7,994 nucleotides of DNA, from positions 1 through 7,994 of the forward strand of contig JAEZQX010000286.1 of the NCBI GenBank assembly GCA_023441105.1, read 5' to 3'. Position 1 is the stretch's first letter. Every line of letters begins with the position of its first letter. The position numbers were made by a program, and so were the translations under genes. Positions 1-7,994 of the stretch are shown piece after piece. This DNA comes from Pseudomonadota bacterium. Lineage in GTDB: Bacteria > Pseudomonadota > Gammaproteobacteria > Burkholderiales > Burkholderiaceae. Under the pieces are notes generated by a model, which searched no databases, was not told the DNA's origin, and saw only the letters and a list, made by a program, of their open reading frames with translations.

Positions 1-10
1 GGGGGGGGGG
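1..10. other. Ten-base G homopolymer at the window edge
   Basis: The window opens with ten consecutive G residues. On the minus strand this is a C run that stays in frame with the partial hydrolase gene and would encode Pro-Pro. A pure G run exactly at the first base is typical of a read or assembly edge artefact (poly-G from two-colour sequencing), so the last two or three residues of the partial hydrolase should not be trusted. A genuine C run in the gene is the alternative. Confidence 0.55.
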
Positions 11-323
11 CCACGTCCTGGTCCGGAATGTTCGTCGCCTCCTGGACTTCGGCGATGTACTGCATCAGGAACTCCTGCTGCCCGCGATCCAGACCGTCGC
101 CGCGCACCACGATGCGAGCCGCCTGCCCGGGATCGAGCCCGGCCACGATCTGCGCCAGCGTGTCGCCGTAGTACGGGAAGTGGATGCGATCCTCCGGGAT
201 CGGCAGGTCGAGCCCGCTACGGGCAAGGCCCTGGCGCCAGGCGTCGATCCACGACTTCTTCAGGTCGACGGAGTCGAGATTCTCCTGTGCGCGGCCATGG
301 ACGAACACCAGCTCACGAGTCAT
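1..323 (-). CDS. Alpha/beta-hydrolase-like protein, 3' part missing
   Basis: Only the first 107 codons are present; the reading frame is open to the window edge. The N-terminus reads MTRELVFVHGRAQEN: a hydrophobic first beta strand followed by the VHG turn (residues 8-10) that in alpha/beta hydrolases sits beside the oxyanion hole. A helix around residues 21-36 (KKSWIDAWRQGLARSG) and a strand with FPYYGDT (49-55) follow. The nucleophile elbow (GxSxG), acid and histidine would lie beyond the edge, so enzyme activity cannot be confirmed. The start is well supported: AAGGAG lies six bases upstream (335-330), and the ATG overlaps the TGA of the caspase gene by four bases (ATGA), so the two are almost certainly co-transcribed and translationally coupled. 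I recall similar VFVHGRAQE-type proteins annotated as hypothetical or alpha/beta hydrolase, but cannot verify this here. Substrate unknown; lipase/esterase or acyltransferase are possibilities. Confidence 0.72.
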   Translation of the reverse strand, partial: MTRELVFVHGRAQENLDSVDLKKSWIDAWRQGLARSGLDLPIPEDRIHFPYYGDTLAQIVAGLDPGQAARIVVRGDGLDRGQQEFLMQYIAEVQEATNIPDQDVAPP

Positions 324-2206
324 CGCAGTCTCCTTGCCAGCATCAGTTCGCGCAGGCGGCCGGCGCCCGCGGGGTTGAAGTGGGTCCACAGGGAAGGCAG
401 CAGCTCGCGCTGGATGCCCTCCAATCCGTCCGGCAATGCGACGCCGAAGGCGGGGAGCAGGGCCCAGCCGCGGGCAAGCATCGGAAACGGCGGGTGCCGC
501 GGCTGGTGCATCGGGGGAGGCAACGGCAGGTTGGACGAAGCGCCTCGCAGGTCGCCAGACAGCAACGCCAAATCGAAGAACGACAGCGACAGGTCCCGCG
601 ACAGCTCGCGCGACAGCTCGTGCGACAGCATCCGATCGATGTCGCGGATCGCATCGGTCCTGCGCTGGTCGTGCAAGGCGTATGCCACGTGAAGCGCGAG
701 GGTCGGATCGATCATGACATCGTCCGACCCCGTCTGGCCGTAGCGCATCTGCCGTGCCAGCCCCGCCATGCTGTCCGCCTGGGGATGGAAGACGCCGCTG
801 CGGGCGGCGCTTGCGACCAGGCGGCGCAGCTCGCGCAGATGCGCGGCGCGCCGCTGGAATTCCTCCCAGCGCGATGCGCCGAAAGCCGGCTCGTAGGCGA
901 CGTCGACCAGCTCGTCGTCGTCGAATTCCAGCGTGGCGATGAAACCTTCGACAACCGGCACCAAGACGCCGCTGCCGTTGCCCGCGATCAGCAGCAGGTT
1001 CTCGGACGTGCCGGCGAGCTCCAGGGCCATCCGGATCTCGTCCCCGCTGCGCTCGAACCATGGGCGGGCGCCGAGGCAGTCGGCGACCTCCGCGCCCCTG
1101 ACGACGATCCCGCACCTGGGACCTGGCATCCAGCCAGGCACGGGCTCAGCGCCGGTGGCGGCGCCGCGAGCTTCCGGCCGCGCGCCACCCGGCACCGAAC
1201 TGGGCACCGTCCCAGGCATCCTCCTGCGGCGGCCGTCCTCGGGATCGACGGCCGCGCCATCGCCGCGCCGCAGGAACGCCTCCAACTGCGCGTCGAAGCG
1301 CGCCTGTGCCGATGGTCGAAGCACCATTGCGGATGGTCCGGCTGATGGCTCAGCGGACGGAGCAGCGCCCGGCCCTCCCGGGTGTGCGGCGCGCGCCGCT
1401 TCCAACGCCGCCGGCAGGCTGTCGAGCTGCGCTAGCCAGGCGTCGTCGTCGGAGGTGATGCGCGCATCCGGCACCTGGTCGACCGCAAGCGGCAGCGCCA
1501 GTGCGGCAAGCCGGCGCGGCAGTTCGTCGAGCAGGCAGGATTTCAGCGGCCGCGGTCGCACCAGTTGCAGCCTGCGGCCATCGCGTTCTGCCTCCTTGAC
1601 CGCGGCGGGGAGGCGGCCGCTGACCGCATCGAGCAGCGCCTGCGTGTACACCGCATGAAAAGAGGCGCTGGCTGCCGCCGGATCCTTGACTTCCAGCGCC
1701 GGGCGGCCGAGGGTGGTCGCGAAGAAGACATCCACCGCCTGCTCGGGTCCGGGCACCGGATCGTTGGGAAAGATCTCGCTGCCGGTGACGCCCTGCGCCT
1801 GGATGCCTTCGGCGGCGGTGCGGCAGGCATCGGAAATGAACACCACGTGCGGGATGCCGCTGCGACGCGCGAGCACGATGCTGCCCTCGACGTTGACCGC
1901 TGCCGACGGATCCACCGGGGCATCCGACAACAGCCAGTATTCGCCGTAGCGGATGTTGACGCCGTGGCCGGCGAAATAGACGATCAGCTGCTCGATAGCC
2001 CCGCTGTCCACCAGCGTCCGGATCGCCCGCTTGATGGCGCCGATCTCCACCGGCTGCTGTTCATCGGTGAAGACGAGCACGCGACGTGGCGCCAGCCCCT
2101 GCGCCAGCGCCCAGCGCTCCATCGAGCGGGCGCCACTGGCGGCATCATTGAGCACGGGCAGGCCGCCGGTCCGATTCACGCCGATCAATACCGCGGCTCG
2201 CGACAT
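320..2206 (-). CDS. Caspase-like (peptidase C14 family) protein with a long C-terminal region
   Basis: 628 residues from the ATG at 2206. Residues 1 to about 235 form a caspase fold: a first strand (AAVLIGVNR), the histidine motif YFAGHGVN with catalytic His81, and the cysteine motif FISDACR with Asp126 and catalytic Cys128. An Ala/Pro/Gly-rich linker covers about 275-360. The C-terminal part (about 362-628) starts with a beta-rich segment (CGIVVRGAEV through GFIATLEF) and continues with helices, including DPTLALHVAYALHDQ and a short LSRELSRDLS repeat. From memory, this C-terminal module recurs in bacterial 'caspase family' proteins of about 600 residues; I do not know its function. No signal peptide or membrane segment, so cytoplasmic. 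A GTG nine bases upstream is possible, but AGGTGG (2217-2212) sits five bases before the ATG and would overlap that GTG, so I prefer the ATG. The gene overlaps the hydrolase gene by ATGA. The protease could process its partner or itself; a cell-death or defence role is inference only. Confidence 0.88.
   Translation of the reverse strand: MSRAAVLIGVNRTGGLPVLNDAASGARSMERWALAQGLAPRRVLVFTDEQQPVEIGAIKRAIRTLVDSGAIEQLIVYFAGHGVNIRYGEYWLLSDAPVDPSAAVNVEGSIVLARRSGIPHVVFISDACRTAAEGIQAQGVTGSEIFPNDPVPGPEQAVDVFFATTLGRPALEVKDPAAASASFHAVYTQALLDAVSGRLPAAVKEAERDGRRLQLVRPRPLKSCLLDELPRRLAALALPLAVDQVPDARITSDDDAWLAQLDSLPAALEAARAAHPGGPGAAPSAEPSAGPSAMVLRPSAQARFDAQLEAFLRRGDGAAVDPEDGRRRRMPGTVPSSVPGGARPEARGAATGAEPVPGWMPGPRCGIVVRGAEVADCLGARPWFERSGDEIRMALELAGTSENLLLIAGNGSGVLVPVVEGFIATLEFDDDELVDVAYEPAFGASRWEEFQRRAAHLRELRRLVASAARSGVFHPQADSMAGLARQMRYGQTGSDDVMIDPTLALHVAYALHDQRRTDAIRDIDRMLSHELSRELSRDLSLSFFDLALLSGDLRGASSNLPLPPPMHQPRHPPFPMLARGWALLPAFGVALPDGLEGIQRELLPSLWTHFNPAGAGRLRELMLARRLR
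588..623 (-). repeat. Three tandem 12-bp units inside the caspase gene
   Basis: Three successive 12-base units beginning GACAG (588-599, 600-611, 612-623; consensus GACAGCTCGCGC) plus flanking partial copies are read in frame on the minus strand as a four-residue repeat, giving SHELSRELSRDLS at about residues 528-540. Because the period is a multiple of three, copy number changes would only lengthen or shorten a helix. Confidence 0.75.
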
Positions 2207-2300
2207 ACAGCCCACCTGACTGCGACAAGCTACGCTGGATGCTACGCGGGAACGGGGGCGTTAGGATAGCGGTCCCAGGCCGCCTCGCGAGGAGTTCGAT
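2207..2300. promoter_or_regulatory. Divergent intergenic region, caspase gene versus cupin gene
   Basis: This 94-bp gap separates two divergent starts and must hold both promoters if each is transcribed alone. The only -10-like hexamers I see are TAGGAT at 2262-2267 on the plus strand (for the cupin) and TAGCAT or TAGCTT on the minus strand (about 2244-2239 and 2232-2227); none has a convincing -35. The ribosome sites at the two ends are clear: GAGGAG (2289-2294) for the cupin and AGGTGG (2217-2212) for the caspase gene. Confidence 0.4.
2229..2247. repeat. Direct repeat GCTACGC, 12-bp period, in the divergent promoter region
   Basis: GCTACGC occurs at 2229-2235 and again at 2241-2247, separated by five bases. 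On the minus strand each copy is GCGTAGC, overlapping the weak -10-like hexamers of the caspase gene. The near-helical spacing would suit a regulator bound as a direct-repeat dimer, but chance duplication in GC-rich DNA cannot be excluded. Confidence 0.35.
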
Positions 2301-4036: not shown

Positions 4037-4962
4037 CCACTGCAGCCGGCAACGCCGGCAGCACCGACACCGCCGCCCTTCTGAAAGCCAACCGCCGCGG
4101 CATACTCTTCATGTGCACGGCGATGGGCTGCTTCGTCGTCAACGATTCCCTGGTCAAGTACGCCAGCCAGTCGATGCCGGCCTCGCAACTGATCTTCCTG
4201 CGGGGGCTCATGGCGACGCTGCTGGTGCTGGGCATCGTGCGAGCCACCGGCGCCGCCCGTCGCACCGGCGAGGTGATGCGCGGCTGGGTCGCGGTGCGCG
4301 CCTGGGTCGACGCGCTCGCCACCTTCACCTACCTCATCGCCCTCTTCCACCTGCCGATCGTCAATGCGACGGCGATCATGATGACCTCGCCGCTGATCAT
4401 CGCCATGCTGGCGGCGCTCTTCATGGGCGAGCGGGTCGGCGCCAGCCGCTGGGCGGCGATCGTGCTGGGCTTCATCGGGGTGTTGTTGATCATCCAGCCG
4501 CGGGCCGAAGGCTTCAACGCCTATTCGCTGCTATGCCTCTTCGGCACCGTGCTGATGTCGGTGCGCGACCTGCTCACCCGCCGCGTCGCCGCCCGCGTGC
4601 CGTCCACCATCATCACCCTGGCGACGGCGCTGGCCGTCACCCTGCTCTCCAGCGTCGCGTCGGCGGTGGAAGGCTGGGGTCCGTTCGGGCTCTTCGAGTT
4701 CTCGCTGCTGGCCGCGGCATCGATCTTCCTCGCCGGCGGCTACTACGGCATCGTGGTCGGCATGCGCCACGGCGAGATGTCGGTGATCGGACCCTTCCGC
4801 TATTCCGGCCTGATCTGGGCGCTGCTGATCGGCTTCGCCGTCTGGGGCGACCTGCCGAACGCGATGGGCTGGATCGGCATCGGCCTGCTCACCGGCTCGG
4901 GCCTCTATGTCGTCTACAGCGAGCGGCTGCGCGCCGAGAGATCGCCGCGCCCCGCGAATTGA
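4033..4962 (+). CDS. EamA/DMT-superfamily permease
   Basis: 309 residues with ten predicted membrane helices (about 24-44, 50-70, 87-104, 110-131, 138-156, 164-180, 190-211, 220-241, 252-271, 278-296). These form the two tandem five-helix EamA repeats (about 20-155 and 165-296). The first repeat ends with the familiar pattern TSPLIIAMLAALFMGERVGASRW (split here as SPLI at 119-122, MGER at 131-134), followed by a glycine-rich fifth helix; the second has SVIGPFRYSGLIW (250-262) at the equivalent place. The family exports or imports small metabolites such as amino acids, purines and polyamines at the inner membrane; no substrate can be assigned. The frame is open upstream to an ATG-less GTG at 3958, but that extension would overlap the MFS start and adds a non-conserved tail, so ATG 4033 is chosen; it lacks a ribosome site. 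Divergent from the MFS gene; the downstream yfcF gene has its own promoter. Confidence 0.87.
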   Translation: MTTAAGNAGSTDTAALLKANRRGILFMCTAMGCFVVNDSLVKYASQSMPASQLIFLRGLMATLLVLGIVRATGAARRTGEVMRGWVAVRAWVDALATFTYLIALFHLPIVNATAIMMTSPLIIAMLAALFMGERVGASRWAAIVLGFIGVLLIIQPRAEGFNAYSLLCLFGTVLMSVRDLLTRRVAARVPSTIITLATALAVTLLSSVASAVEGWGPFGLFEFSLLAAASIFLAGGYYGIVVGMRHGEMSVIGPFRYSGLIWALLIGFAVWGDLPNAMGWIGIGLLTGSGLYVVYSERLRAERSPRPAN

Positions 4963-4987
4963 CTCGTTCGTCTCCGCCACCTAGCAT
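4959..4987 (+). promoter_or_regulatory. Sigma70-like promoter for yfcF, overlapping the EamA stop codon
   Basis: TTGACT (4959-4964, five of six to TTGACA) is followed after exactly 17 bases by TAGCAT (4982-4987, four of six to TATAAT). Transcription would begin near 4994, giving a short leader of about 17 bases that still contains the GGGAGG ribosome site (5000-5005). The -35 box includes the TGA stop codon of the EamA gene. Confidence 0.55.
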
Positions 4988-5010
4988 GGCTGCCTCGCCG
5001 GGAGGCTCGG

Positions 5011-5679
5011 ATGAACGATCACGAATTCACCCTTCACATCGATGCGCGCTTCCTCAGCCCGTATGCGATGTCCGCATTCGTCGCGCTGACCGAGAAGGGC
5101 GTGCCTTTCCAGCTGCGCAAGGTCGACCTGACGGGAAAGGAGCACCTGGAGGATGAATATTCCCGGCTGTCGCTGACGCGGCGCATCCCGACGCTGACGC
5201 ACGGTGACTTCCACCTGTCCGAATCCTCCGCCATCGCGGAGTACCTCGAGGACATCCTGCCTCCGCCCAGGCATTTCCCGCTCTACCCGCAAACGCCCCA
5301 GCCGCGCGCGCAAGCCCGGCAATTGCAGGCCTGGCTGCGCAGCGACCTGATGCCGATCCGCGAGGAGCGGACCACCGAGGTCGTCTTCCTGCAGCCGGCG
5401 AAGCAGCCACTCTCGGCGGACGCCACCACTGCCGCCGAGACCTTGTTCGCCGCTGTCGACGCGTTGCTGCCGGCCGGGGCGCACAACCTTTTTGGCGAGT
5501 GGTGCATCGCGGATGCGGATCTCGCGCTCATGCTCCATCGCCTGATCAACAATGGCGATCCGCTGCCGTCGCGGCTCGTCGACTACGCGCGCCATCAATG
5601 GCAGCGGCCGTCGATCCGGACCTGGGTCACGCAGGCCCATCAGGCGGCAGGAATCGGCGAACCGGCATCCCCGCGATGA
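5011..5679 (+). CDS. yfcF: YfcF-type glutathione S-transferase
   Basis: 222 residues, close in length to E. coli YfcF (214) and, from memory, strikingly similar to it along the whole chain: LSPYAMSAFVALTEKG (15-30), RRIP with the cis-proline Pro60, ESSAIAEYLED (71-81, the glutathione gamma-glutamyl contact), AWLRSDLMPIREER (107-120) and NLFGEWCIADADLALM (159-174). The N-terminal thioredoxin-like fold (about 6-83) binds glutathione; the C-terminal part is the all-helical substrate domain with the conserved Asp-containing N-capping region. Ser16 at the start of helix 1 is the likely catalytic-type residue. YfcF has glutathione transferase/peroxidase activity and is linked to peroxide resistance in E. 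coli. Cytoplasmic. GGGAGG five bases before the ATG supports the start. The stop overlaps the next ATG, so it forms an operon with the PPOX flavoprotein gene. Confidence 0.93.
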   Translation: MNDHEFTLHIDARFLSPYAMSAFVALTEKGVPFQLRKVDLTGKEHLEDEYSRLSLTRRIPTLTHGDFHLSESSAIAEYLEDILPPPRHFPLYPQTPQPRAQARQLQAWLRSDLMPIREERTTEVVFLQPAKQPLSADATTAAETLFAAVDALLPAGAHNLFGEWCIADADLALMLHRLINNGDPLPSRLVDYARHQWQRPSIRTWVTQAHQAAGIGEPASPR

Positions 5680-6290
5680 GCGGGTACAGGATCTCCACCG
5701 TCGAGGCGCTGCGATCGCTCTACCCCCCGCCCGGCGAACGCGCCAGGCGCAAGCAGCTTGCGGCGCTGGACGTCCATTGCCGGCGCTTCGTGAGTCTTGC
5801 GCCGCTCCTGGTCATCTCCAGCGCGTCGGCTGCCGGACAGATGGATGCCTCGCCGCGTGGCGGTGAGCCGGGTTTCGCCAGGGTGGCGGACGACAAGACC
5901 CTGCTGATCCCGGACGCGCCGGGCAACAACCGCCTCGACACGCTGTCGAACATCATCGAGACCGGTCGCGCCGGGCTGCTGTTCCTGATTCCCGGGGTCG
6001 ACGAGACGCTGCGGATCAACGGCACGGCGGAACTATCCGAGGATCCGGCGTTGATGGAGCGCTTTCGCAGCGAACGGCGGCTGCCCAGGCTGGTGATCCG
6101 CATCGGCGTCGAGGAAGCCTACCTGCACTGTGCGAAGGCGCTGATGCGGTCGCGGCTATGGGCGCCGGAATCGCGGGTCGCTCGATCGGCGCTGCCGACC
6201 ATGGGCCGCATGATCAACGACCAGAGCGGCATCGTTGGCGAGCCGGAGTCGCAGGAGCAGATGGTGGCGCGCTACGCCCGGGACTTGTGA
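5676..6290 (+). CDS. PPOX-type FMN flavoprotein (MSMEG_1061 / DR2398-like)
   Basis: 204 residues from the ATG that overlaps the yfcF stop (ATGA). The frame is open further upstream, but only as antiproductive overlap with yfcF. Landmarks of this subgroup of the pyridoxamine 5'-phosphate oxidase-like split barrel are all present: DASPRGG (57-63), LIPDAPGNNRLDTLSNI (77-93), FLIPGVDETLRINGTAEL (103-120) and HCAKALMRSRLW (151-162). The family binds FMN as a dimer; true PNPOx activity is not expected, and family members are mostly uncharacterised oxidoreductases. The N-terminal 34 residues (IS..EALRSLYPPPGERARRKQL) precede the barrel. There is no good Shine-Dalgarno sequence, so translation probably depends on coupling to yfcF. 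Sitting with a glutathione transferase, a role in redox or electrophile detoxification is a reasonable inference. The gene is convergent with the flavocytochrome gene. Confidence 0.9.
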   Translation: MSGYRISTVEALRSLYPPPGERARRKQLAALDVHCRRFVSLAPLLVISSASAAGQMDASPRGGEPGFARVADDKTLLIPDAPGNNRLDTLSNIIETGRAGLLFLIPGVDETLRINGTAELSEDPALMERFRSERRLPRLVIRIGVEEAYLHCAKALMRSRLWAPESRVARSALPTMGRMINDQSGIVGEPESQEQMVARYARDL

Positions 6291-6292
6291 AG

Positions 6293-6390
6293 CGTCGGCC
6301 TGCGGGCATCGGCCAGGGCGTCGGCCCGCGGCGTCAGCCCGCGCGTCAGCCCGAGGCGTAAGCCCGAGGCCTCAGCCCAAGGTGTCGGCC
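6293..6390. repeat. Degenerate 12-14 bp tandem repeat between convergent genes
   Basis: Eight copies of an octamer close to CGTCRGCC start at 6293, 6307, 6319, 6332, 6344, 6357, 6370 and 6383, mostly followed by CG(C/A)GG or a variant. The array fills the whole gap between the PPOX stop and the flavoprotein stop and runs about 19 bases into the 3' end of the flavoprotein gene. The 12-14 bp period is not a multiple of three, so it does not encode a peptide repeat. I see no clean terminator stem and U-tract; an 8-bp palindrome GAGGCCTC lies at 6366-6373. Confidence 0.7.
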
Positions 6391-7643
6391 CAGATGTTGC
6401 GCGCCCAGCTGGTGGCATAGATTCCCTCCAGCTCGTTCGCCGCCTCCGACAGGCCGCCCGAGCCTGGGACTGCCAGCAGCGTCTTCTTCGCCTCGTCCCA
6501 CGCATGCACCGACGCCACGTGGATGACGTCCTTGTCGGAGACGAAGCTGTAGCAGGTGTTGGTCAGCATCGGCCGCGGCGCCGGCGCGCGATCCGCCAGC
6601 AGGTCCACCACCGCGCCGGCGCAGACCTTGGCATGCTGGTTTGCCATGTGCGCCGACTTGGGCATCAGCGGGGCGGTCTGGATGGCATCGCCGACCACGT
6701 GGATGCCCGGTGAGCTGGTCGATTCGAAGGTGCGGAAGTCGACCGAGCACCAGCGGTCATTGGCATCCGCAAGCCCCGCCTGCACCGCGATGTCCGCCGC
6801 CCGCTGCGGCGGGATCACGTTGAGCACATCGCCCTTCACCTCGTCGCCGAGCTCCGAGATGACGCTGCGCGCCGCGGCGTCGACGTCGACCGCAAGAAAG
6901 CCCGGGCGGTATTCGATGATGTCGCGATAGCGTTCCTGCCAGACCTTGCGGAACAAGGCGCCCTTGGAGACGATGTCCGGGTTCGCGTCGAGCACCAGCA
7001 CCTTGGACTTCGGCTTGCTGCGGCTGAAGTAATGCGCAACCTGGCAGGCCCGTTCATACGGGCCCGGCGGACAGCGGTAGGGGGCCGGGGGCACCGACAT
7101 CACATAGATGCCGCCGTCTGCCATGGCCTCGAGCTGCGCGCGCAAGGCCACGGTCTGGGGACCCGCCTTCCAGGCGTGCAGCACCCGCTCGCGCGCGGCC
7201 TCGCTCCGCATGCCGGGCAGACGGTCCCAGATGAAGTCGACGCCGGGCGACAGCACCAGTCGATCGAATGACAGCGCGTCGCCGCCGACGAGCGTGGCCG
7301 TGCGCTTGGCGGCGTCGATCGCCGCCGCCCGGTCGCGCGCGATGCGCACGCCCTGTCGCTCGAGGCCGCGGTAGTCGAGGGTGAGGTCGTCGATCTTCCG
7401 CGAGCCGCCCAGCACCAGGTTAGACAGCGGGCACGACACGAACCGCTCGGCCGGCTCGACGAGGGTCACGTCGATGCTGCCGCCGCTCCAGAGGCGGATG
7501 TACCTGGCGGCGGTGGCGCCACCATAGCCGCCGCCCACCACCAGCACCCTGGGCTGCGAAGCCGCGCTCGCGGGCATAGGCGAGCTGCCGGCGAGAGCCA
7601 CGCCGGCGCCGGCGGCACGCAGGAGAAAGTCGCGCCGCTTCAT
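6372..7643 (-). CDS. fccB: Sulfide dehydrogenase flavoprotein subunit (FccB/SoxF-like)
   Basis: 423 residues. A twin-arginine signal peptide (KRRDFLLRAAGAGVALAG, then an alanine-rich AxA-like end near residue 28) directs the folded flavoprotein to the periplasm. The FAD-binding GxGxxG is VVGGGYGGATAARY (35-48); the second dinucleotide strand is KVLVLDANPD (214-223) and the C-terminal FAD motif is GIHVVGDAI (313-321). Cys71 in SCPLSN aligns, after removing about 29 signal residues, with the cysteine that carries FAD covalently in Allochromatium vinosum FccB (Cys42 as I recall). Cys191 (YRCPPGPYERAC) and Cys364 (TNTCYS) match the redox-active disulfide pair near the flavin. The enzyme oxidises sulfide to sulfur/polysulfide and reduces its cytochrome partner, encoded immediately upstream with an ATGA overlap. 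There is no Shine-Dalgarno sequence; a hairpin covers its place. Substrate may instead be another sulfur compound or thiol in non-phototrophs. Confidence 0.93.
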   Translation of the reverse strand: MKRRDFLLRAAGAGVALAGSSPMPASAASQPRVLVVGGGYGGATAARYIRLWSGGSIDVTLVEPAERFVSCPLSNLVLGGSRKIDDLTLDYRGLERQGVRIARDRAAAIDAAKRTATLVGGDALSFDRLVLSPGVDFIWDRLPGMRSEAARERVLHAWKAGPQTVALRAQLEAMADGGIYVMSVPPAPYRCPPGPYERACQVAHYFSRSKPKSKVLVLDANPDIVSKGALFRKVWQERYRDIIEYRPGFLAVDVDAAARSVISELGDEVKGDVLNVIPPQRAADIAVQAGLADANDRWCSVDFRTFESTSSPGIHVVGDAIQTAPLMPKSAHMANQHAKVCAGAVVDLLADRAPAPRPMLTNTCYSFVSDKDVIHVASVHAWDEAKKTLLAVPGSGGLSEAANELEGIYATSWARNIWADTLG

Positions 7644-7994
7644 GAGCCCGAGGCCGGCCTTGCCGGCCGCGCCGTCGTGCCCGCCGCGTCCTTGGCGGGC
7701 GTCGCATCCTGGGCGGCGAAGAAGGCGGCGATCCGTTCGAGGTCCGCATCGCTGTAGCCCTTGGCCAGCTGCGTCATGACGGTTGCGCTGCGATCGCCGG
7801 ACTTGAAGGCCCTCAGGCTCGCCAGCAGCGCCTGCTTCGGCTGACCGGCCAGCGCCGGAATGGCGTTGCCGACGGTCCGGCCGTCGGTGCGGTGACAGCC
7901 GGTGCAGGTGGCGGCCAGGCGGGCGCCCTCGGCGGCAGCCGGAGACGCCGGCAGCGCGGCGGCGCCTTCGCTCGCGGTGGGCGCGTCGCTGGGG
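7640..7994 (-). CDS. c-type cytochrome, FccA/c4-like partner of FccB, 5' part missing
   Basis: The last 117 codons are present; the start and the export signal lie beyond the window. An Ala/Pro/Ser-rich stretch leads into a single heme-binding CTGCH (bases 7906-7892), followed by NAIPALAGQPKQALLASLRAF, a methionine suited as sixth heme ligand (VMTQLAKGYSDADLERIAAFFAAQ), and a low-complexity Ala/Thr/Pro tail of about 20 residues. This is the layout of a class I cytochrome domain of the c4/FccA type. It could be the second domain of a diheme FccA or a complete monoheme subunit after its signal peptide; the missing 5' end decides. It acts in the periplasm, accepting electrons from the flavoprotein. 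Its TGA overlaps the fccB ATG by ATGA, which argues for fixed stoichiometry. The gene was readable only by tracing the frame upstream from fccB. Confidence 0.88.
   Translation of the reverse strand, partial: PSDAPTASEGAAALPASPAAAEGARLAATCTGCHRTDGRTVGNAIPALAGQPKQALLASLRAFKSGDRSATVMTQLAKGYSDADLERIAAFFAAQDATPAKDAAGTTARPARPASGS
7652..7668 (-). promoter_or_regulatory. GC-rich hairpin just upstream of the fccB start
   Basis: In the minus-strand transcript GGCCGGC, a three-base loop AAG, and GCCGGCC form a perfect seven-pair all-GC stem that ends eight bases before the fccB ATG, in the place a ribosome site would occupy. It lies within the last codons of the cytochrome gene, so a translating ribosome must open it before reaching the overlapping ATGA. 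It has no U-tract and is not a typical terminator. Confidence 0.5.

Follow-up and report, generated by a model that had tools for sequence, protein, structure and literature searches.

The locus at the beginning of the window, as the 7,994-nt stretch of Burkholderiaceae DNA analyzed is called here, raises the question of whether a caspase-family protease and the alpha/beta-hydrolase-like protein encoded directly behind it act together, and what the protease might do to its partner. The caspase gene occupies positions 320 to 2206 of the minus strand, with an ATG start and a product of 628 amino acids; a database protein of 100% identity (P0002) uses the same start, and an alternative GTG start is located at 2215 (ORF 320-2215, minus strand). 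The caspase domain comprises residues 1-262, counted from the ATG (1421-2206, minus strand), and the protein matched the Pfam profile Peptidase_C14 (6.7e-6; 26.4 bits, cut-off 21.4). The catalytic dyad and the aspartate noted in the preliminary description were confirmed in position, with His81 (codon 1964-1966), Asp126 of the SDAC motif (1829-1831), and Cys128 (1823-1825) all on the minus strand and each invariant in 110 of 110 aligned caspases. Asp126 presumably occupies the position of MALT1 Asp462, within the pocket for basic P1 residues. The AF2 model of the caspase (pLDDT 87.6, pTM 0.91) showed a MALT1-like fold in a fold search, and the profile match, the His/Cys dyad, and the fold together place the protein in the caspase superfamily, for which 745 homologues of this caspase were found.

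The caspase domain is followed by a linker at about residues 263-360 (1127-1420, minus strand), which is partly of low confidence in the model (low pLDDT at approximately 271-290 and 321-360) and may be a region of self-processing. The dipeptide RG was present in 82 of 110 caspase linkers, against a mean of 54 and a maximum of 66 in 200 shuffles; this enrichment is weak evidence, [RK]S being enriched too. The C-terminal domain, residues 361-628 (323-1126, minus strand), consists of eight strands followed by helices according to DSSP on the model. Its profile matched loci L001-L004 and L011 and, more weakly, L006, L007, L009, and L021, and no row for this domain appeared among the fold-search matches listed, all of which came from one domain. 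The Rfam search of the window gave no match, and no promoter or terminator patterns were found at 2150-2350. ORFs on the opposite strand over 1-2206 were taken as mechanical.

The stop codon of the caspase gene (TGA, 320-322) and the start codon of the hydrolase gene (ATG, 321-323) share an ATGA (320-323, minus strand), and an AAGGAG ribosome-binding site within the caspase gene (330-335, minus strand) precedes this ATG by six bases, so that both the overlap and the good ribosome site described previously were read again directly. The hydrolase frame begins MTRELVFVHGRAQ and is present for its first 107 amino acids (3-323, minus strand), the remainder lying beyond the window start. Across 103 residues, the fragment is 51% identical to the N-terminal part of the complete alpha/beta hydrolase P0122, in keeping with its earlier naming as alpha/beta-hydrolase-like. 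It contains His9-Gly10 of the VHG strand-turn (294-299, minus strand) and Arg74-Gly75 of the sequence IVVRG (99-104, minus strand), the latter a candidate protease cut site (site 1). With 745 caspase and 2416 hydrolase homologues, and with the pair recurring in other phyla, the arrangement is not a chance feature.

Among plasmid records with this caspase, the hydrolase was found next door, downstream, and on the same strand in 19 of 20 (18 rhizobial plasmids and one Hymenobacter), and the caspase-then-hydrolase order is common to the window, a planctomycete MAG (L001), and an IMG/VR contig (L011). The best-120 caspase and best-120 hydrolase lists have 22 longest-contig sizes in common, whereas 200 shifted controls averaged 0.7 and never exceeded 4. 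A close pair was detected in one of 199 planctomycete genomes; a Mesorhizobium locus (L021) has the caspase without the hydrolase, and in an Acinetobacter-type locus (L008) the hydrolase stands alone. The prospect raised beforehand, that homologues of either gene usually occur singly, was not borne out in the plasmid records. We conclude that caspase and hydrolase are very probably functionally coupled.

Inspection of 39 of the 50 hydrolase plasmid records (one of four places in the L032 record) showed that a change in protease class leaves the association of hydrolase and protease intact. In 38 of the 39, a protease was adjacent or fused: a stand-alone caspase in 19, the N-terminal caspase of a larger STAND/AAA or TPR-PIN protein in 6, caspase-VMAP in 5, CHAT in 1, and trypsin in 7 (two fused); motifs rather than Pfam identified the caspase in ten cases and the trypsin in one. 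No recognisable protease was found in the L033 record. At one Agrobacterium plasmid site, the same flanks enclose either caspase-hydrolase (L006) or hydrolase-trypsin (L030, L038); the ParB-like neighbours are 78% and 96% identical and the helicase neighbour is 83% identical to that of L030, whereas L006 and L030 share just 26% identity in their hydrolases. The L030 helicase, which matched DISARM DrmD, was discarded as defence context, since its counterpart beside L006 makes it look like a plasmid backbone gene. Single-ORF fusions with weak hydrolase scores were found in planctomycetes, joining the hydrolase to a caspase (L016, and the close relatives L018 and L019) or to a subtilase (L012), and five of nine weak planctomycete hydrolase matches had no protease motif. 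The hydrolases of the trypsin, VMAP, STAND, and planctomycete-fusion loci are only distantly related (identity of about 25-35%, or similarity at profile level), and thus the notion of one hydrolase family rests partly on the alpha/beta-hydrolase fold.

The GxSxG, Asp, and His expected of such a hydrolase are visible in relatives only, the window fragment ending after 107 residues. In P0122 numbering, H8, G9, H179, S180, G182, D237, D240, and H272 are invariant in all 120 best-scoring of the 2416 matches, so that these relatives keep HG, HSxG, and a candidate Asp (D240) and His (H272), which in the relatives contradicts the prospect, also raised beforehand, of a hydrolase devoid of catalytic residues; the model of one relative has a lipase/thioesterase-like fold. 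Judged from their folds and invariant catalytic residues, both enzymes look active, and the hydrolase is probably a serine hydrolase, whether lipase, esterase, or phospholipase. The invariance among the best-scoring 120 indicates that the enzyme activity is under selection, which argues against a hydrolase that regulates or inhibits the caspase, or serves as a folding adaptor as CanB may for CanA, with esterase activity being secondary. Such a role would suit the overlapping genes, which fit a stoichiometric complex, and CanA and CanB formed a soluble complex on co-expression according to the available part of PMC12799240, but the same role would then have to be played on unrelated proteases by the relatives linked to trypsin, CHAT, and subtilase, and we regard this explanation as quite improbable.

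An oversized insert separates the HG turn of the hydrolase from its nucleophile and, in caspase-paired hydrolases, holds two conserved [RK]-G dipeptides in poorly ordered loops. There are 18 columns that are at least 90% basic, and a conserved glycine comes next in two only, R73-G74 (site 1) and R114-G115 (site 2; P0122 numbering). Both sites are present in 72 of 76 aligned relatives, and both fall in the lowest-pLDDT stretches of the hydrolase model. A gated pro-hydrolase switched on by the protease was proposed because the two dipeptides lie in these least confident parts, resembling the Canu nuclease. The two sites carry the same letter (R or K) in 99 of 114 sequences (expected 67.5), their R/K changes share 4 tree branches against 0.8 expected (P 0.005; ten column pairs tested, uncorrected), and departures from R/K coincide (site 1, 4; site 2, 5; double, 3; P 1.4e-4, ancestry ignored). 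However, control column pairs also agreed above expectation (2-73, 72/103; 2-114, 70/102; 2-285, 74/99; 73-285, 69/108; 114-285, 66/108), and therefore the agreement is partly shared ancestry; for the control pair 2-217, changes fell together on 3 branches (P 0.01) and never in the same direction. A conserved PLNW follows site 2, and the corresponding Arg in the 60 aligned relatives of a trypsin-paired hydrolase lies inside an invariant E-R-[IV]-P-L-P, so this site may be structural or may serve R/K-cutting proteases of both kinds. Among diverged caspase-paired hydrolases, L006 and L009 have no clear sites, L007 is ambiguous, and L011 has R-A at site 2; the L034 row was left out of this comparison, its sequence having been cut from a wrong start and containing a stop. 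Cleavage at both candidate sites by the caspase is possible, at somewhat under an even chance.

A different arrangement would be that one sensor releases two effectors, the caspase cutting other proteins and the hydrolase attacking lipids, without mutual cleavage and with co-location reflecting shared regulation only. The available part of Kaur et al. 2020 (PMC7159879) has peptidase and hydrolase operating together and proposes no cleavage, and several loci have the hydrolase as a gene of its own, upstream of one for a caspase joined to a sensor-like protein. Against two independent effectors, the hydrolase loops bear the paired [RK]G sites, which are absent from two solo hydrolases, and no shared third gene was seen in the annotation and ORF lists of the stand-alone loci (L001-L004, L006, L007, L009, L011); we consider this arrangement unlikely. 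Action of the protease on the hydrolase is favoured on balance, and the best reading is still that the protease activates its partner, as first suggested from the locus, with candidate cut sites now named.

Caspase-family proteases serve defence in the bacterial gasdermin, type III CRISPR, NLR-like, and Thoeris systems. The window caspase matched the generic caspase model of PADLOC weakly (25.5 bits); it differs in having a hydrolase as partner, and none of the partner genes of those systems was found among the window's Pfam matches. Its caspase domain resembles that of EACC1-associated caspases (NCBIfam NF047832), but the scores of 20.7-47.7 bits in four or five queried caspases (30.7 for the window protein) lie below the cut-off of 140, and no EACC1 gene was identified by annotation, which lacked an EACC1 model. 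The available text of Tuck et al. 2025 (PMC12799240) names caspases in the same four settings and describes the experimentally tested anti-phage system Canu (caspase-nuclease), in which a caspase activates a pro-nuclease having two gating insertions. To the extent that this text shows, the likeness to the window pair lies in a MALT1-like caspase upstream of a second enzyme, in two candidate cut sites with conserved Gly in disordered insertions, and in related nuclease pairs likewise found with trypsin. The window partner, by contrast, is an alpha/beta-fold serine hydrolase and not a metallo-beta-lactamase nuclease, of which none was found among the window's Pfam matches; a CanB-like third gene was not noticed at window-type pairs.

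The nearest precedent for the pairing is in VMAP (MoxR-vWA) ternary conflict systems, where Kaur et al. 2020 (PMC7159879), in the part available, predicted an alpha/beta-hydrolase gene next to one for a caspase domain, and a 2021 follow-up, likewise available in part, lists caspase and alpha/beta hydrolase among effectors fused to one adaptor domain (PMC8195603). At L029, L031, L036, L039, and L040, relatives of the window hydrolase adjoin a MoxR/AAA ATPase gene and VMAP-M2 proteins. Compared with the VMAP arrangement as far as it is described there, the gene order of the window pair is reversed and its caspase bears another C-terminal domain; no VMAP, MoxR, or vWA gene occurs among the window's Pfam matches, which reach no farther than the hydrolase fragment on that side, and the caspase has no VMAP domain. 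Within the open-licence literature, the available parts of PMC10907252 (without 'hydrolase') and PMC10910872 contain nothing on a caspase-hydrolase pair. The preliminary statement that no characterised system has exactly this form accordingly stands for the stand-alone form and gives way for the pairing as such, predicted in VMAP systems, and for caspase activation, tested in Canu. New here are the stand-alone caspase-hydrolase form, the replacement of one protease class by another, and the candidate cleavage sites.

On the question of whether such pairs lie in defence islands, defence genes were near the pair at two loci, with L011 adjoining a type I restriction system and the neighbourhood of L004 containing a Hachiman-type helicase match, but not at the window, whose visible neighbours are cupin, MFS, EamA, GST, PNPOx, and flavocytochrome c genes, with no defence gene among its Pfam matches. 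PADLOC at 1e-5 gave no match for the PIN gene of L011, the NERD gene of L002, or the TIR gene of L037. The search of phage records yielded no caspase of this family, and none was confirmed in the scan of viral contigs, although this missed the diverged caspase of L011, reached through its hydrolase. Hydrolase matches occurred in two records named Acinetobacter phage; one of these, L008, was rejected as phage evidence, its surrounding glutamyl-tRNA synthetase, tRNA, and metal-efflux genes looking like bacterial DNA. A housekeeping or envelope-quality function, such as protein de-acylation plus proteolysis, is made improbable by the patchy distribution (1/199 planctomycete genomes; 18 rhizobial plasmids and one Hymenobacter), the exchange of modules at one plasmid site, the related hydrolases within predicted conflict systems (VMAP), and the restriction system next to L011. 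Phage defence is the role that we consider fairly likely.

In summary, the locus has about an even chance of being a stand-alone two-gene effector module consisting of a caspase-family protease and a gated pro-hydrolase. A signal, perhaps infection, would be sensed by the C-terminal domain of the caspase and would let the caspase act; the caspase would then cleave its partner after an Arg or Lys residue at either candidate site, or at both, opening the active site of the hydrolase, and the freed enzyme might harm the host membrane or another ester pool, so that growth would stop or the cell would die before the phage matures. More tentatively, the nuclease-protease pairs of bacteria may have a counterpart, a second great class of effectors gated by proteases, in which a single lineage of lipase-like pro-hydrolases has repeatedly been wired, by fusion or adjacency, both to many sensors and to proteases from unrelated clans (caspase/CHAT, trypsin, subtilisin). 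The window operon would be its minimal form: an Arg/Lys-specific caspase would cut the two [RK]-G sites and set free an enzyme that destroys membranes, giving bacteria an equivalent of lytic cell death that needs no gasdermin. The available part of the nuclease work (PMC12799240) raises, in general terms, further classes of enzyme activated by proteolysis. If true, proteolytic activation of immune effectors, known for nucleases (Canu, Hachiman, AVAST), would reach lipase-like enzymes too, the pairing described for VMAP systems by Kaur 2020 would gain a reason, and a two-gene system with named residues (caspase H81 and C128; P0122 R73, R114, and S180) would be at hand for a direct test of caspase-driven bacterial death.

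The caspase-family gene lies on the minus strand at 320-2206 when read from its ATG (to 2215 from a GTG) and encodes 628 amino acids identical to P0002, which the protein database search listed on three contigs, the longest being 164 kb. Its sole Pfam match was Peptidase_C14 (26.4 bits). The numbering of His81, Asp126, and Cys128 in the preliminary description was checked and is correct, and the ATGA overlap of the caspase stop with the next start was found as described there, with AAGGAG upstream. The following minus-strand gene encodes an alpha/beta hydrolase fragment that starts with VFVHG, runs for 107 aa to the window edge, and showed 51% identity over 103 residues to P0122, the complete hydrolase of a planctomycete MAG. 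Ten G at positions 1-10 are perhaps a contig end or a sequencing artefact, and thus the terminal residues (PP) of the fragment may not be real. By Pfam, the remaining genes encode a cupin, MFS and EamA transporters, a GST, a PNPOx protein, and flavocytochrome c sulfide dehydrogenase with cytochrome c; no defence gene was matched on the visible side of the pair. The dehydrogenase flavoprotein gene and the upstream cytochrome c gene (6372-7993, minus strand) are likely a sulfide-oxidation pair.

Protein searches revealed 745 caspase homologues, with scoring confined to the 7994 candidates sharing the most words, and 2416 hydrolase homologues. Between the best 120 of each, 22 longest-contig sizes were common, compared with a mean of 0.7 and a maximum of 4 in 200 shifted controls. 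In tblastn against plasmid records, two caspase queries gave 20 records in all and the hydrolase query gave 50. The preliminary description had proposed a neighbourhood search across genomes, and the pair does recur: in 19 of the 20 caspase records the next gene downstream, on the caspase strand, is the hydrolase (all by coordinates, 6 also read as annotated regions), 18 of them rhizobial and one from Hymenobacter, and the pair was also found in a Candidatus Anammoximicrobium MAG (L001; caspase 8001-9788, hydrolase 9790-10671), the single locus from one genome-contig scan. The exception was Mesorhizobium AR10 (L021), in which no hydrolase gene follows the caspase at 4076-6031. Among 199 planctomycete genomes, a close caspase was present only in that containing L001, and 13 others showed weak caspase matches only. 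The pair is real, coupled, and present in several phyla. A 479-aa database protein from outside the window, P0170, joins an apparent C-terminal caspase piece in frame to a hydrolase, either as a natural fusion or as an annotation effect.

Next to the hydrolase, proteases of several kinds were found. The plasmid records covered were 39 of the 50, including the 19 caspase-paired; the other 11 comprise seven seeming duplicates of covered records by name and score, and four from Acinetobacter. A protease was adjacent or fused in 38 of the 39, a count that covers this hydrolase alone. The partner was a stand-alone caspase in 19 records, a caspase forming the N-terminal part of a larger protein in six (STAND or AAA ATPase in L024-L027 and L034, four of these five with WD40 repeats; TPR/PIN in L028), a caspase-VMAP-M2 protein in five, each with an ATPase gene of MoxR or AAA family annotation after it (L029, L031, L036, L039, L040), a CHAT protein in one (L022), and a trypsin-like protease in seven (L023, L030, L035, L037, L038; fused in L005 and L032). 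The caspase call in the STAND/AAA and VMAP proteins was made from HG and DxC motifs by pattern; among all the larger caspase proteins, L028 was the sole one in which Pfam recognised the domain at E 0.01, and our own caspase profile gave weak hits (E 0.004) in L026 and L029. For L032, where one of four hydrolase places was read, trypsin was called from a GSSGSP motif. The surroundings of the L005 fusion also include an S8 peptidase gene. No recognisable protease adjoined the hydrolase in L033, and in the Acinetobacter-type relative L008 the hydrolase stands alone. This 240-kb record is named Acinetobacter phage MD-2021a; the stretch read carries gltX, tRNA, and efflux genes and looks bacterial rather than phage DNA.

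On Agrobacterium plasmids, one site, flanked by a ParB-like gene on one side and a large gene of helicase type on the other, is occupied by either a caspase-hydrolase (L006) or a hydrolase-trypsin module (L030, L038). The ParB-like protein of L006 shares 96% identity with that of L038 and 78% with that of L030, and L006 and L030 share 83% identity over 787 residues in their helicase-type proteins but only 26% in their hydrolases, indicating that one accessory site, a hotspot for such modules, takes different protease-hydrolase modules. In planctomycetes, the hydrolase was matched in 10 of the 199 genomes, one being that of L001; the other nine matches were all weak (best 2.4e-15) and covered mainly the nucleophile half. 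Three of these nine are single ORFs of hydrolase plus caspase (L016 and the close relatives L018 and L019), one joins hydrolase and subtilase (S8) in an 824-aa frame (L012:175-2646, minus strand), and five showed no protease motif within their short loci.

Candidate cut sites were sought in 76 aligned hydrolases. Of 18 columns at least 90% basic, only R73 (site 1) and R114 (site 2; P0122 numbering) precede a conserved Gly (75/76 and 76/76), with R and K interchanging (48 R and 25 K; 46 R and 28 K); both sites are present in 72/76. They fall within the lowest-confidence model stretches (51-80 and 111-120), and the flanks vary on both sides of site 1 and on the N-terminal side only of site 2. 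Among the best 120 of 2416 hydrolases, the R or K letter was the same at both sites in 99/114 (expected 67.5). When the motif columns were excluded from the tree, four branches changed at both sites (expected 0.8, P 0.005), three in the same direction. Counting against this, ancestry also lifts five control column pairs above expected agreement, and control pair 2-217 shared three branches (P 0.01), none in the same direction (ten pairs tested, P uncorrected). Three sequences departed from R/K at both sites, with four departures at site 1 and five at site 2 (P 1.4e-4, disregarding ancestry). The window hydrolase carries site 1 (IVVRG), as do those of L002, L003, L004, and the IMG/VR contig L011, which reads R-A at site 2; site 2 is present in L002, L003, L004, and the CHAT-paired L022. 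Clear candidate sites were not found in the L006 and L009 hydrolases, and L007 was ambiguous. Within residues 31-175, [RK]G was absent from the solo L008 and L033, and likewise from trypsin-paired L030, L038, and L005 and VMAP-type L039 and L040. In 60 relatives of the L030 hydrolase (of 120 listed), site 1 had no counterpart and site 2 reads E-R-[IV]-P-L-P, with R in 60/60. This invariant Arg would fit an Arg cut common to trypsin and an Arg-cutting caspase; equally, it may mark a structural turn.

Eight neighbour genes, chosen rather than random, were scanned for defence. In L011 the pair directly precedes the type I restriction genes hsdR, hsdM, and hsdS. On the Hymenobacter plasmid, a helicase gene near the pair (L004:993-4046, minus strand) matches Hachiman HamB models, with a match to caspase within the N-terminal 232 residues of its product, and is perhaps a caspase-armed helicase defence gene. 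A NERD-NTPase gene lies nearby in L002 and genes annotated TIR in L037; PADLOC at 1e-5 gave no match for the NERD-NTPase gene, the tested TIR gene, or the L011 PIN gene. The defence context is suggestive only, because the eight neighbours were hand-chosen and the window shows no defence neighbour.

According to Kaur et al. (2020, PMC7159879), whenever a VMAP system includes a caspase domain, an alpha/beta-hydrolase gene is its invariable neighbour; as far as visible in the window, the present pair is not a VMAP system. Tuck et al. (2025, PMC12799240) report activation of a gated pro-nuclease by a caspase, in the Canu system, or by trypsin, and suggest that further classes of enzyme await discovery. 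With no nuclease, the window pair is not a Canu member. By analogy, we think that it may work like Canu with a lipase-like enzyme replacing the nuclease, a putative mechanism that is plausible. The pair is a variation on a kind of system already known.
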